Shown here piece after piece: positions 7,874 to 34,654 of a stretch of 64,000 nucleotides of DNA (its first letter is position 1; each line of letters starts with the position of its first letter). Position numbers and translations under genes: made by a program. The notes under the pieces are model-generated. The model did not search any database and had not been told where the DNA came from. It was given only the letters and a program-made list of their open reading frames with translations. Source of the stretch: Elusimicrobiota bacterium (GTDB lineage: Bacteria; Elusimicrobiota; Elusimicrobia; UBA1565); contig JACPXC010000030.1 of NCBI GenBank assembly GCA_016196755.1, positions 1-64,000 on the forward strand, written 5' to 3'.

Positions 7874-8461
7874 CTACTCAACAACCGGGGTCTCGAAGAT
7901 GGCCAAGGTCAGGGAGTCGAGCAGGCGCTCGAGGACGCGGCGATGGCGCGCGAACTCGCCCACCGGCGCGTCGTAGCGGATGAGGAAGATGCCCTGCGCG
8001 TCGGGGAGCATGAACAGCTCGGTCCGGGCCACCGCCACCTTGACCCCGAGCAGGTACTCCGGGGAGTACTCGTGGGTGGTGAAGACGACGTGGGCGGCGG
8101 CGCGCGAGGAGAGCTCGACCTCGTCGACGATGTGGGAGTCCGCGGTCGAGCCCTGCTGGCGCATCCAGCGCCGGTACTCGCGCGGGTCCTTCCAGCCCGG
8201 CGCGCCCTCGAGGTGATAGGAGACCGTGATCGCCGCGGCGCCTCCGGGATGCTTGAAGCGCACCCCGCCCTCCACCTGGGTCGGTCCCTTCCAGCGGCGC
8301 TTGATCTCGAAGGAGAACTTGGGGTTCTCCATGAACGGCACGGCGGAGGGCCGGAAGACGTACTTGAAAGGGGGGACGCGGCGGTGCCAGCCCGAGCGGC
8401 AGCCCGCCAAGGCCAAGACGAGGACGACCGACGTCCATGCGCGCACGGCGTCGTATACCAT
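7874..8461 (-). CDS. Putative lipoprotein of unknown function
   Basis: The chosen start (ATG at 8461) yields a short signal sequence ending in a lipobox, VLVLALAGC, with the cysteine at residue 21; a GTG five codons later is also possible. The mature domain (about 175 residues) is a compact alpha/beta unit with segments FSFEIKRRWKG, VSYHLEG and LLDSLTLAIF, the pattern of small lipoproteins that are fused to or follow gliding or secretion modules, but I cannot name a family. It diverges from nadE with only 10 bases between the start codons. Confidence 0.6.
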   Translation of the reverse strand: MVYDAVRAWTSVVLVLALAGCRSGWHRRVPPFKYVFRPSAVPFMENPKFSFEIKRRWKGPTQVEGGVRFKHPGGAAAITVSYHLEGAPGWKDPREYRRWMRQQGSTADSHIVDEVELSSRAAAHVVFTTHEYSPEYLLGVKVAVARTELFMLPDAQGIFLIRYDAPVGEFARHRRVLERLLDSLTLAIFETPVVE

Positions 8462-8471: not shown

Positions 8472-10106
8472 ATGCGCGTAGCGCTGGCCCAGCTCGACCC
8501 GGTCGTCGGGGACGTCCGCGGCAACCTCGAGCGCGTGCGCGCCGCCTACAAGGCAGCCGTCGCCCAGGGCGCCGAACTGGTGATGACCCCGGAGCTGGCC
8601 CTGGCCGGCTATCCGCCGCGCGACCTGCTCGAGCAGCCCGATTTCGTGCGCGCCAACCGCCAGGCCTTGGCGGCCCTCGCCAAGCAGACCCGCGCGGCGG
8701 GGCTTCTGGTGGGCTTTGTCGAGGCCAACCCCGCCCCGCGCGGGCGCGCGGTGTTCAACTCGGCGGCCCTCCTGCACCAGGGGAAGGTGACGGCGACCCG
8801 GCGCAAGACCCTCCTGCCCACCTACGACGTCTTCGACGAGGTCCGCCATTTCGAGCCCGCCCGGGAGAACGCCCCGGTGCGCTTCAAGGGCCGCCGCCTC
8901 GGCATCACGATCTGCGAGGACGCCTGGAACGACGAGGCGTTCTGGGGCAAGCGCCTCTACCAGGACGACCCCGTGGCGCGCCAGGTCAAGGCCGGGGCCG
9001 AGCTCCTGCTCAACGTCTCGGCCTCGCCGTTTGAGACCGGCAAGCTGGCCTTCCGGCGCGGGATCGTCGCCGGCCACGCCCGGCGCCACGGCCTGCCGTT
9101 CCTCTATTGCGCCCAGGTGGGGGGCAACGACGAGCTCGTCTTCGACGGCTACTCCTTCGCGGTGGACGCCCGCGGGCGCACCCTGGCCGCGGGCCGCGGC
9201 TTCGCGGAAGACCTCATCATGGTCGACACCGACGCCCCGGGACGGGCCTCGTTCCCGGAGCGGCCTCCCGTCGCCGACCTCCACGACGCCCTGGTACTCG
9301 GCATCCGCGACTACGCCGCCAAATGCTCCTTTAAGTCGGCGCTGATCGGCCTCTCGGGAGGCATCGACTCGGCCGTCACCTGCGCCCTGGCCGCCGCGGC
9401 CCTCGGCCCCGAGAAGGTGCTCGGCGTGTCGATGCCGTCGATGTACTCCTCGCCCGGCAGCGTCAGCGACGCCGAGGCCCTGGCCGTGAACCTGGGGGCC
9501 CGCCTCATCTCCCTGCCGATCAAGGGCCCCTACGACGCGCTGATGCGCGCCTTGGCCGGCCCGTTCAAGGGCACCGCCTCCGGACTGCCCGAGCAGAACC
9601 TCCAGGCCCGCATCCGCGGGAACCTGCTGATGGCCTTGTCCAACAAGTCCGGCAGCCTGCTCCTCAGCACGGGCAACAAGTCCGAGCTGGCGGTGGGCTA
9701 CTGCACGCTCTACGGGGACATGTCCGGCGGCCTGGCCGCCATCGCCGACGTGTTCAAGACCGACGTCTACGCCTTGGCCCGATACATGAACCGCGAGCGT
9801 GCCGTCATCCCCCAGGACTCCATCGACAAGGCCCCGTCCGCCGAGCTCAAGCCCGACCAGAAGGATCAGGACGACCTGCCGCCCTACGACCAGCTCGACC
9901 GCATCCTCCGCCTCTATATAGAGGAAGGCAAGGACGCCGCCGCCATCGTCAAGACCGGCGAGCCCGCGGCGCTGGTCCGCGACCTCCTCGACCGCGTCGA
10001 CCGCGCCGAGTATAAGCGCCGCCAGGCGCCGCCCGTCCTGCGGGTGTCCCCGAAGGCCTTCGGCGTCGGCCGCCGGATGCCGATCGCCCGCGGGCCCCAC
10101 CGCTGA
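8472..10106 (+). CDS. nadE: Glutamine-dependent NAD+ synthase
   Basis: This two-domain enzyme makes NAD from deamido-NAD and ATP, using ammonia released from glutamine. Residues 1 to about 260 form the carbon-nitrogen hydrolase domain with its Glu-Lys-Cys triad (Glu41 in TPELALAGYPP, Lys112 in RRKTLLP, Cys148 in ITICEDAW). The synthetase domain starts near 275 with the ATP pyrophosphatase motif SGGIDSA at 295-301 and STGNKSELAVGYCTLYGDM further on. The 544-residue length is normal for the prokaryotic fused form. It starts its own transcription unit and is followed at once by a 76-bp palindrome. Confidence 0.96.
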   Translation: MRVALAQLDPVVGDVRGNLERVRAAYKAAVAQGAELVMTPELALAGYPPRDLLEQPDFVRANRQALAALAKQTRAAGLLVGFVEANPAPRGRAVFNSAALLHQGKVTATRRKTLLPTYDVFDEVRHFEPARENAPVRFKGRRLGITICEDAWNDEAFWGKRLYQDDPVARQVKAGAELLLNVSASPFETGKLAFRRGIVAGHARRHGLPFLYCAQVGGNDELVFDGYSFAVDARGRTLAAGRGFAEDLIMVDTDAPGRASFPERPPVADLHDALVLGIRDYAAKCSFKSALIGLSGGIDSAVTCALAAAALGPEKVLGVSMPSMYSSPGSVSDAEALAVNLGARLISLPIKGPYDALMRALAGPFKGTASGLPEQNLQARIRGNLLMALSNKSGSLLLSTGNKSELAVGYCTLYGDMSGGLAAIADVFKTDVYALARYMNRERAVIPQDSIDKAPSAELKPDQKDQDDLPPYDQLDRILRLYIEEGKDAAAIVKTGEPAALVRDLLDRVDRAEYKRRQAPPVLRVSPKAFGVGRRMPIARGPHR

Positions 10107-10182
10107 TTGTTGCGTTCGGGGTCAGACCTTGATGTTGCGCTTCTAGAAGCGCAACATCAAGGTCTGACCCCGAACGCAACAA
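10107..10182. repeat. 76-bp perfect palindrome after nadE
   Basis: Two 38-base arms meet with no loop at 10144/10145 and are perfectly complementary; the core of each arm is GGGGTCAGACCTTGATGTTG. The palindrome starts at the base after the nadE stop. It could act as a transcription stop, but there is no clean T-run, and its perfection suggests a recent mobile sequence. From memory, GGGGTCAGACC palindromes occur as REP-like units near Y1-type transposases in other genomes; no transposase gene is in this window. Confidence 0.85.
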
Positions 10183-10244
10183 ACCTAGAGGGGATAGGAC
10201 CTACGGCCTAAGGCGGGCCGGAGGGGCCGTGATATCATGACAGC

Positions 10245-12281
10245 ATGACGATTTTCCTGGCGTTTTTGCTGTCGGTCGCGCCGCTCCATGCTTCGTTCAA
10301 GTCGGTCCTGCCCGCCCCGGCCCTTCCAGCCGCCACGCTGAGCTCGCCCGTGCCGGTCTTCGCGCCGCGCCTGGCGGTACCGACCGCGGCGGCCGTCCTC
10401 CCCACCCTGACCCTGACGCCGGCGCTGGCCCCGGCGGCCCCCGTAGTCATCAAGGCCGCCGTCGCCGCCGCGGCCGTTCCTGCCGCCCAAGCCGCCCCCC
10501 TGCCCGCCACCGCCGAGGCCGCGCGGCCGGCCCTGAGCGGCAAGTCCTCCTGGGTCAACCTCTTCGACGGGCGCGCGCGCTCGGCCGTCAACGGCGTCGT
10601 CGCGGGCTCGGCCTTCGTCTCGGAGCGCGCCTCCTACGAGACCGCGCGGAGCATCCAAGGCTTCTATCACGAACTGGCGACGATCCACGCCCTCGAGCGC
10701 GGCGCGCTGGTCTCCGAAGCCCTCGAGACGCGCAAGCGCACGCTCTGGACCTCCCTGCGCGCCGTCGACGCGCGCCTGAGCGGACCGGCCGCCGAGCCAT
10801 TCGCGGCCGTTTCCGCCCGGCTCAAAGCCCAGCGCGCGGCCCGCGCGGCCCTGCCCGCCGTCGCGCCTGAGGCCCTGGCGGCCGACCAAGCCCTCCTGGC
10901 CACCCAGGTCCGGGCCGCCCTGCTCATGCTGGAAGGCGGCTCGCGCCTGGCCTCGAAGGACGCCCGCCGCAACGCGGCCCTGTGGACTTTAAACGGCGCC
11001 TGGGGCACCGCGGCCTCGCTACGCGCCGAGACCCGCTGGCTGGAGAGCCGGCGTCAGATCCCCGCCGCCTTCTCCGCGGCGCCGGTGGCCATCCCGCAAA
11101 CCCGCTGGCATAACGCGGCGACCGGGCTCGACGACGCCGGCCGCGACGCGCGCAACGGCCGGCCCGCCGAGGCCGCGGCCAAACTGGCCGGACTCGAGCG
11201 GCTCTTCACAGTCTCGCCGGAGGTGCTGGAGCCGGGATTTACCGCCCCCACCGGTCAGGTCAAAGCCGGCATCGTCCAGGCGCGCCAAGCGCTGGCCGGC
11301 GGCGACGCCGCCGCCTTGGCCGCGGCCCTGGACGCCGCCAAAGGCATGATCGCCTATCCCAAGATGTCCTCCGTCGAGGTCGTCGAGTATGCCGACACGG
11401 CCGCGGCCGGCCGCGCCCAGCGCCATAAGCTCGAGTCGATGGCCGCGGAGTCCGAGCGCGTGTCCCAGCGCGCGGCCGAGACCGACTACTGGGCCGAGCT
11501 GGCCGGAGCCGCGGGACTCAAGGGTCCCGAGCGCCGCCCGCTGGTCGGCCTCGAGGTGACGGCGTTCCGTTCCTTCCTCGCCGACGCCGCGGCCTGGGCC
11601 GGGCGCGGCTTCGTGCGCTCCCGCCAGGAAGCGGCCGAGCGCCTGGCCGCCGCCGCCGAGGCCGCGGAAGCCGGCCGGTTCGACCTGGCCGCGGCGCGCC
11701 TGCGCTCGGCCAAGTCGACCTTGGACAAGCGCGTCAAGGACTTAAGAGACATGCGCGCCGCCATCGAGCGCCGCGCCAAGTCCCTCAACGGCCGCCATGA
11801 GACCCTGCTCGAGGCCGCGGCGCGCTGGAAGCGCGCCTTGGCCAAGCCGCTAGACGAGACCCGCGCCCGCGACCTCGCCGGCGACGTCCGCAGCCACCGC
11901 GAGGCCTATCTCGCCGCCGTCGAGCCCGGACTGCCCGGCTACGCCCGCGCCGCCGAGGACCTCGCCCGGCTCGAGACCGCCCTGGCGGCGCTCAAGCGCG
12001 ACGAAGCCAAAGCCCTCGTGGCCCGCTTCCAAGAGGACCTCATCCACCGCCGCTCGCTGCGCGTCTCGGTGGTCCTGCGCCCCCGCAAGAGCGGCGGCAT
12101 CAAGCGCGCCTCGGACCGCTTCGTCCTGCCGGGAACGACCCTGGGGACCCTGCTCAAGCGCGTCGGCGGAAAGCCGGAGAAGCCCGAGGTGCGCCTCGAC
12201 CGCGGGGAGTGGACCCCTTGGTCCGAGCTCGACCTACGCGGCAAGCTCGCCGACCGGACGCTAGTGGAGATCCTTCTTTAG
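10245..12281 (+). CDS. Long alanine-rich exported helical protein, unknown function
   Basis: The 678-residue product begins with a signal peptide (MTIFLAFLLSVAPLHA), then a Pro/Ala-rich stretch to about residue 100 and a long, mostly helical alanine/arginine/glutamate-rich body with coiled-coil character (for example about 460-600). The last 70 residues look like a separate small beta domain ending VEILL. TATCAT lies 6 bases before the ATG. The gene ends in TTCTTTAG, the 8 bases duplicated by the inverted-repeat element inserted directly after it. No function is assigned. Confidence 0.6.
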   Translation: MTIFLAFLLSVAPLHASFKSVLPAPALPAATLSSPVPVFAPRLAVPTAAAVLPTLTLTPALAPAAPVVIKAAVAAAAVPAAQAAPLPATAEAARPALSGKSSWVNLFDGRARSAVNGVVAGSAFVSERASYETARSIQGFYHELATIHALERGALVSEALETRKRTLWTSLRAVDARLSGPAAEPFAAVSARLKAQRAARAALPAVAPEALAADQALLATQVRAALLMLEGGSRLASKDARRNAALWTLNGAWGTAASLRAETRWLESRRQIPAAFSAAPVAIPQTRWHNAATGLDDAGRDARNGRPAEAAAKLAGLERLFTVSPEVLEPGFTAPTGQVKAGIVQARQALAGGDAAALAAALDAAKGMIAYPKMSSVEVVEYADTAAAGRAQRHKLESMAAESERVSQRAAETDYWAELAGAAGLKGPERRPLVGLEVTAFRSFLADAAAWAGRGFVRSRQEAAERLAAAAEAAEAGRFDLAAARLRSAKSTLDKRVKDLRDMRAAIERRAKSLNGRHETLLEAAARWKRALAKPLDETRARDLAGDVRSHREAYLAAVEPGLPGYARAAEDLARLETALAALKRDEAKALVARFQEDLIHRRSLRVSVVLRPRKSGGIKRASDRFVLPGTTLGTLLKRVGGKPEKPEVRLDRGEWTPWSELDLRGKLADRTLVEILL

Positions 12282-34515: not shown

Positions 34516-34528
34516 TTAATCCTGATGA

Positions 34529-34614
34529 GTGCCGTGTCCGGGGTGTTGCCCCGTCGACGCGCATTCGAACGCTAACGTCCACGCGCCGACGGGGCAACAC
34601 CCCGGACACGGCAC
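34529..34614. repeat. 33-bp-stem inverted repeat
   Basis: Bases 34529-34561 pair with 34582-34614 with one mismatch, around a 20-base loop; the arm begins GTGCCGTGTCCGGGGTGTTG. It stands alone in the gap between the metallopeptidase gene and mraZ. Long REP-like hairpins of this type are often mobilised by Y1-type transposases; it might also stop transcription, though no T-run follows. Confidence 0.75.
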
Positions 34615-34654
34615 AAATCAAGAATAGGCGCGATTGCGTTTCCGTTAATCGAAC

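Follow-up and report, generated by a model that had tools for sequence, protein, structure and literature searches.

A 76-bp perfect palindrome behind nadE in an Elusimicrobiota genome: probably a gene-less miniature element of a Y1 transposase family

The window, that is, the whole 64,000-nt stretch of DNA analysed here, is contig C57 of a 4.59-Mb Elusimicrobiota genome in 67 contigs. As the original prediction stated from the letters alone, a 76-bp perfect palindrome lies directly after nadE: the stop codon TGA of nadE occupies 10104-10106, the palindrome begins directly 3' of it, and its two arms are 100% complementary over 38 nt with a gap of 0 nt (Table 1). The domains expected of nadE were confirmed as well. 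Among the longest 25 of the window's 34 inverted pairs, this is the sole perfect one. Folded as single-stranded DNA, the palindrome reaches -49 kcal/mol, compared with -9.2 +/- 2.2 kcal/mol for shuffled sequences (z -17.9). A single 38-nt arm alone reaches -4.4 kcal/mol (z -1.45), a value equalled by 16 of 200 shuffles. A hairpin of the single arm as a conserved structure was ruled out by this weak fold and by variants that break the outer pairs: arms in which CAA precedes or TTC follows the core do so, leaving only GGGGT-CAG-ACC intact. Severe instability has been reported for longer palindromes. The accessible part of the review PMC7999016 gives no length threshold for palindromes. A second large inverted repeat is present in the window at 34517-34626 (45-nt arms, 89% complementary, 20 nt apart) and contains GTGCCGTGTCCGGGGTGTTGCCCC; its 15-mer GTGCCGTGTCCGGGG was absent from the 335 loci compared.

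Table 1 The palindrome, its parts and its surroundings (positions in the window).
Feature	Position	Strand	Basis
nadE, glutamine-dependent NAD synthetase; neighbour outside the element	8472-10106	+	NAD_synthase and CN_hydrolase domains
CTGAT at the left junction, possible target, overlapping the nadE stop	10103-10107	+	found at 4/16 outer arm ends
Perfect palindrome, 76 bp, two 38-nt arms head to head without spacer	10107-10182		sequence, fold
Left arm	10107-10144	+	arms of the same family at 10 other places in the genome
Outer word TGTTGCG, left arm	10108-10114	+	direct repeat with 10133-10139; invariant in 12 distinct arms
Core GGGGTCAGACC, left arm, recurrent across phyla	10118-10128	+	motif search
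Inner word TGTTGCG, left arm	10133-10139	+	invariant in 12 distinct arms
Right arm	10145-10182	-	inverted-repeat listing
Inner word TGTTGCG, right arm	10150-10156	-	mirror of left arm
Core GGGGTCAGACC, right arm	10161-10171	-	motif search
Outer word TGTTGCG, right arm	10175-10181	-	mirror of left arm
ACCTAG, joined directly in congener G002 to the nadE codon found here 5' of the insert	10183-10188	+	locus comparison

The genome harbours further copies, in line with the original prediction. Arms were found at 11 places including the window: four complete palindromes (C57, i.e., the window, C37:151887, C25:33405, and C48:20124, the last with one mismatched pair apart from the centre), one truncated palindrome (C37:365917, right arm truncated), five single arms (C52:60530, C33:52238, C10:24668, C13:39210, and C28:120362), and two arms in direct tandem (C33:50239-50304). 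Own-genome matches at E values of 0.004 or more (C47, C51, C37:121817, and others) were excluded as chance or coding. All 16 whole arms contain GGGGTCAG, which fits the terminal inverted repeat (TIR) motif GGGGWSAS; the 17th arm (C37:365917) ends before the motif. Among 57 genomes of relatives, own included, two gave matches at E<=0.001, namely the own genome and one congener, where the match to the arm is a single one of 23 bp (E 9e-4). The arm family is, as far as seen, confined to the window's species, and the recent arrival that had been proposed for the palindrome fits the presence of real copies in the own genome only. The genome is known from contigs alone, and an assembler might in principle have made false palindromes. 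We regard this as extremely improbable, since the four complete palindromes are internal to their contigs and bordered on either side by unrelated sequence, each has its own arm variant, and the same design is found in the assembly of another genome (G091, see below).

A gene of the TnpA-REP type, likewise anticipated, is present. The genome contains 12 Y1_Tnp matches (11 over the cut-off), and one of these 12 Y1 genes, C33:51402-52205 (hereafter the C33 RAYT), begins 68 bp downstream of an arm. This arm is identical to the arm of the C37:365917 palindrome over its remaining length. No arm lies directly downstream of the gene; the nearest on that side are the tandem arms, about 1.1 kb off and beyond two response-regulator-like ORFs. 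With an arm on the upstream side only, the C33 RAYT element is not intact. The protein matches Pfam Y1_Tnp (2.2e-9) and the profile of TnpA-REP 4er8 (6.4e-11), and its catalytic residues H63, H65, and Y122 are invariant across 43 aligned RAYTs. Its AlphaFold2 model (pLDDT 93.8, pTM 0.75) resembles 4er8, the structure of TnpA-REP with a REP hairpin, over residues 4-187 (Foldseek 1.5e-7; Z 16.4), while residues 194-268 resemble DnaA domain IV on its box (3pvp and 1j1v; Z 11.1, rmsd 1.9-2.0, 75 aligned). Pfam at E 0.1 reported Y1_Tnp only in this protein, and no DnaA domain. The model predicts for the C33 protein an HUH nuclease joined to a DNA-binding domain like DnaA domain IV. The closest two relatives of the C33 RAYT (L025 and L032, on C31 and C34) are situated at contig ends and have a long run of identical upstream DNA in common, as though they had inserted into a longer repeat or been assembled against one.

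A sister family was found in Elusimicrobia bacterium STA_59 (Elusimicrobiota; G091), whose arms contain GGGGTCAGACCTCCCGTTGTTGCG (76 match rows) and also TTGTTGCG. Here a RAYT gene is flanked by TIRs on both sides (C152:7567-7594 and 8364-8390), and there are 53-bp near-perfect palindromes whose inner ends are those of the RAYT TIRs, with a 3-nt loop. Inverted arm pairs at other spacers are also present. In the RAYT tree, genes from G091 are intermingled with those from the window's order, which, together with nadE (55-58% identity in two pieces, though not clearly higher than for other phyla), suggests Elusimicrobiota as the phylum of the window. The sister family shows the whole design, that is, a gene with both ends together with gene-less palindromes. 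We consider it probable, at roughly three chances in four, that the palindrome in the window is a gene-less miniature element in which the TIRs of a Y1 element (TIRtron) are joined at their inner ends, the cognate enzyme being most likely the C33 RAYT/TIRYT. The original prediction had linked its core to REP-like palindromes. The link to Y1 transposases held, but the tetramers GTAG, GTGG, and CGTC occur on neither strand of the arm; a strict REP reading was ruled out by the missing tag, and the arms are better assigned to a family of terminal inverted repeats (TIRtron).

The arms of each copy resemble each other closely. Only two within-copy mismatches were counted in the four complete palindromes, both in C48, and the observed pairing of the eight arms is the lowest of the 105 possible pairings (mean 10.6 mismatches), whereas the five palindromes differ from each other at 1-6 positions. 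Each palindrome is thus matched to itself. Such a pattern would also be expected if the RAYT spread single arms and each palindrome then arose in place by fold-back copying (template switch), a process that PMC8604942 describes as homogenising the arms of inverted repeats. Inverted pairs were found at 5 of the 11 places, single arms at five, and a direct pair at one, numbers too few for a doublet-versus-singlet statistic, and the equal count of single arms and inverted pairs does not single out the palindrome as the mobile unit. Nevertheless, four of the five own palindromes turn at a common point, CTTC[TC], at their inner ends, which random fold-back would not give. Furthermore, the G091 palindromes share their inner ends with a RAYT element and other spacers exist, which fits gene deletion or movement as a unit. 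On balance, we judge an origin of each palindrome in place to be unlikely.

The nadE locus was compared with that of congeners. In G002, nadE ends with CAC CGG ACC TAG, followed by a RAYT element with 27-bp TIRs and then by the same downstream gene; in the window it ends with CAC CGC TGA T, followed by the remainder of the palindrome and then by ACC TAG. The comparison places the insert just before a G002-like stop and leaves nadE one residue shorter. The G002 element (L268, G002:C65), directly after nadE, is a complete RAYT element with 27-bp perfect TIRs, in which TCCATC is repeated on both sides of the core. With the palindrome here and this element in G002, the same small spacer has been hit at least twice, by different elements. 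At C37:151887, the match to the host gene in G001 and G002 extends to the stop, with divergence from there on. A clean empty site was found in the congeners at neither locus, the nadE site holding another RAYT element and synteny at C37:151887 ending on one side; no excision or insertion event was seen in these comparisons. It is very improbable that nadE has kept the palindrome for function, as its native terminator or as a structure of its mRNA end. The palindrome does form a very stable hairpin directly 3' of the nadE stop, and some other copies also directly follow stop codons, but no terminator-like site was found at 9900-10400, the congener carries a RAYT element in that place, and copies occur at unrelated loci.

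CTGAT precedes 4 of the 16 outer arm ends, on one side only in three of the four complete palindromes, and has a frequency of 3.8e-4 in the window; this pentamer was picked post hoc, and in G001 the host gene's own stop codon provides the CTGA at C37:151887. IS200/IS605 elements have a one-sided target, and CTGAT may, by analogy, be one of this kind. A target-site duplication, as expected of a MITE, was not seen at the C57 and C37:151887 flanks; Y1 elements are not known to make one.

The core of the arm was said in the original prediction to be known near Y1 transposases in other phyla, and its recurrence was borne out. The species-genome collection contains at least 120 stretches with inverted pairs of the form GGGGTCAGACC-N(10-40)-GGTCTGACCCC. 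The 120 stretches listed cover at least 15 named phyla according to their record titles (Pseudomonadota 60, Bacillota 25, Actinomycetota 8, Verrucomicrobiota 6, and eleven more; 3 of 120 without assignment). By our own estimate, about 0.45 such pairs would be expected by chance (257e9 x 31 / 4^22). Eight viral contigs (L169-L176) also have inverted GGGGTCAGACC pairs, against none for the reversed core, a control scan made on viral contigs only; core-bearing elements may travel with phages.

To this end of the analysis belong 40 genomes hand-chosen for spread from the 120 listed loci, all of them core-bearing. A Y1 match was found in 36 of the 40 at E<=0.001 and over the cut-off in 32. They gave 110 Y1 matches, of which 30 + 60 regions were examined. 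Genes below 80 bits on the own-genome profile were left out, a filter that removed the classical IS200 transposases and retained 65 genes in 29 genomes (11 of the 40 genomes unscored). The core lies within 300 bp of the RAYT, in either orientation, for 24 of the 65 genes (22 of the 29 core-bearing genomes), and faces inward on at least one side for 22 (21 genomes) and on both sides for eight, while four control 11-mers lie near none of the 65. Core sites number 60 in 36,969 bp near RAYT genes versus 17 in 87,192 bp further off. The C33 RAYT could be a passenger that landed by chance beside an arm, another enzyme or recombination having spread the arms; the single arm beside the C33 gene and the weak fit of the core label to the RAYT tree (below) agree with this. 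Given the inward-facing core beside the RAYT in 21 of 29 core-bearing genomes and the absence of the controls from all 65 genes, we find it quite improbable.

On the RAYT tree of 103 leaves, a quick tree with 37 of 100 inner branches open, the 24 core-labelled leaves need 18 changes (mean of shuffles 21.8; 2 of 300 as low), and the both-side label needs 9 (12.5 in shuffles; 0 of 300 as low). The chosen 40 genomes alone (64 leaves) need 17 changes versus 19.0, with 54 of 300 shuffles as low. A simple picture in which the core is bound to a single RAYT clade was rejected, given 18 changes for 24 labelled leaves. With the label so scattered, simple co-descent does not link core and enzyme; the tree signal is weak, and the identical 11-mer recurs on numerous separate branches. 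Among 29 RAYTs sampled from the window's phylum regardless of motif, the core is absent from all 29. An inverted flank pair (score 14 or more) was found in 18 of them, and a head GGTG[TC]C or (G)GGAC, partly cut at the edge, fits all 18 paired flanks. We read GGGGTCAGACC as one state of a general TIR head. GGTGYCAG...CTGRCACC pairs were found at one place in the own genome, as was the control. The occurrence of an 11-base core on distant enzymes, from Pseudomonadota to Elusimicrobiota, raises the question of whether it represents an address shared since ancient times or has arisen repeatedly.

Di Nocera 2013 (PMC3733652) describes TIRtrons/TIRYTs as RAYT-like genes with TIRs carrying the motif GGGGWSAS, and TIR families dispersed as singles, dimers, and clusters. 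The window family is of this kind, in a gene-less, REPIN-like form: it has a RAYT-like gene, TIRs in place of GTAG REPs, GGGGTCAG fitting the motif, and dispersed arms. It differs in that the C33 RAYT retains one arm (the G091 sister element both), and in forming spacer-less perfect palindromes with TGTTGCG words flanking the core. REPINs, whose arms show compensatory changes according to Bertels and Rainey 2011 (PMC3116915), are likewise gene-less hairpin-forming inverted doublets with a RAYT in the genome and arms that change together; the window family, unlike them, lacks a GTAG-type REP, has low copy number and no spacer, and, at these small numbers, its doublets are not commoner than singlets. 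In Quentin 2018 (PMC6006769), TnpA-Y1 subclass 2.1 is reported without REP-like sequences and a TIRYT link is noted. The C33 protein resembles this subclass (Bertels group 1) in its HUH (NHFH) and Y---NP motifs and its C-terminal Bac_DnaA_C/HTH-like extension, whereas such genes are here linked to short, dispersed families of inverted repeats. E. coli TnpA-REP (4er8; PMC8266576) shares the Y1 fold of the C33 model, but its 165-residue chain corresponds to the matched N-terminal stretch of C33 only, with the DnaA-like domain beyond. A large Y1 class reported without REP-like sequences is now tied to short dispersed families of its own, and the C33 RAYT with the 38-nt arm makes a concrete, testable cognate pair. 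Less expected are the one core on distant transposases, the arms matched within a copy, and a possible second address for the DnaA-like domain. By title, no repeat or transposase paper contained the core or close strings in open-access text (figures and supplements outside the search). The name TIRYT occurs in two papers of the open-access text. Among the papers listed in the literature search, none beyond PMC3733652, PMC6006769, PMC3116915, and PMC8266576 dealt with a RAYT with a DnaA domain or with RAYT/REPIN in Elusimicrobiota.

If the miniature-element reading is right, the palindrome locus would become single-stranded, e.g., at the replication fork, and the Y1 domain of the C33 protein would recognise the arms as hairpins with a CAG loop from the core. 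The enzyme would then cut the strand and join it elsewhere without duplicating the target, possibly at positions 3' of CTGA(T), a motif frequent at the ends of genes. Identity of the two arms within a copy would be maintained by fold-back copying (template switching), and the C-terminal domain might give element specificity by binding the repeated TGTTGCG. The variable positions in the first 32 nt of 12 distinct arms are 8, 9, 10, 19, 23, 24, and 25, none of the seven falling in the two TGTTGCG words (chance 0.009, in a test designed after the data were seen and with kinship uncorrected).

A broader version of this idea, which we advance tentatively as possible but doubtful, is an address in two parts. 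On single strands the Y1 domain would read a near-universal head, GGKGNC, with GGGGTCAGACC as one of its states; on double strands the DnaA-domain-IV-like C-terminal domain would read a repeated element-specific word of 7-9 nt, as in initiator iterons. Gene-less palindromes would be the minimal substrate. Direct repeats (p<=0.05) were found in 7 of 15 TIRs belonging to genes with the C-terminal domain versus 3 of 30 without (Fisher 0.009), in a test set up post hoc without kinship correction and confounded by kinship, as the domain profile comes from the same lineages. The three without the domain show core self-repeats or an inverted pattern. Individual p values are 0.035 for the window arm, 0.045 for the G002 nadE TIR, and 0.95 for the G091 TIR.

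Other RAYTs of the genome also have recognisable ends. Five of the 12 Y1 genes (L026, L027, L029, L031, and L033) are bounded by terminal inverted repeats that are nearly perfect (score 24-31), with heads GGTG[TC]CAG and a tail particular to each gene. Between the TIR and the start codon, several (L026-L031) carry a stretch GGGAAC...CGTA that may be a shared promoter or leader. The genome's second family, that of RAYT L026 (C45), forms inverted pairs at C6:80982, C48:5795, and C13:77431, the arms of which change together within a pair, making the window palindrome one of several such cases in the genome.
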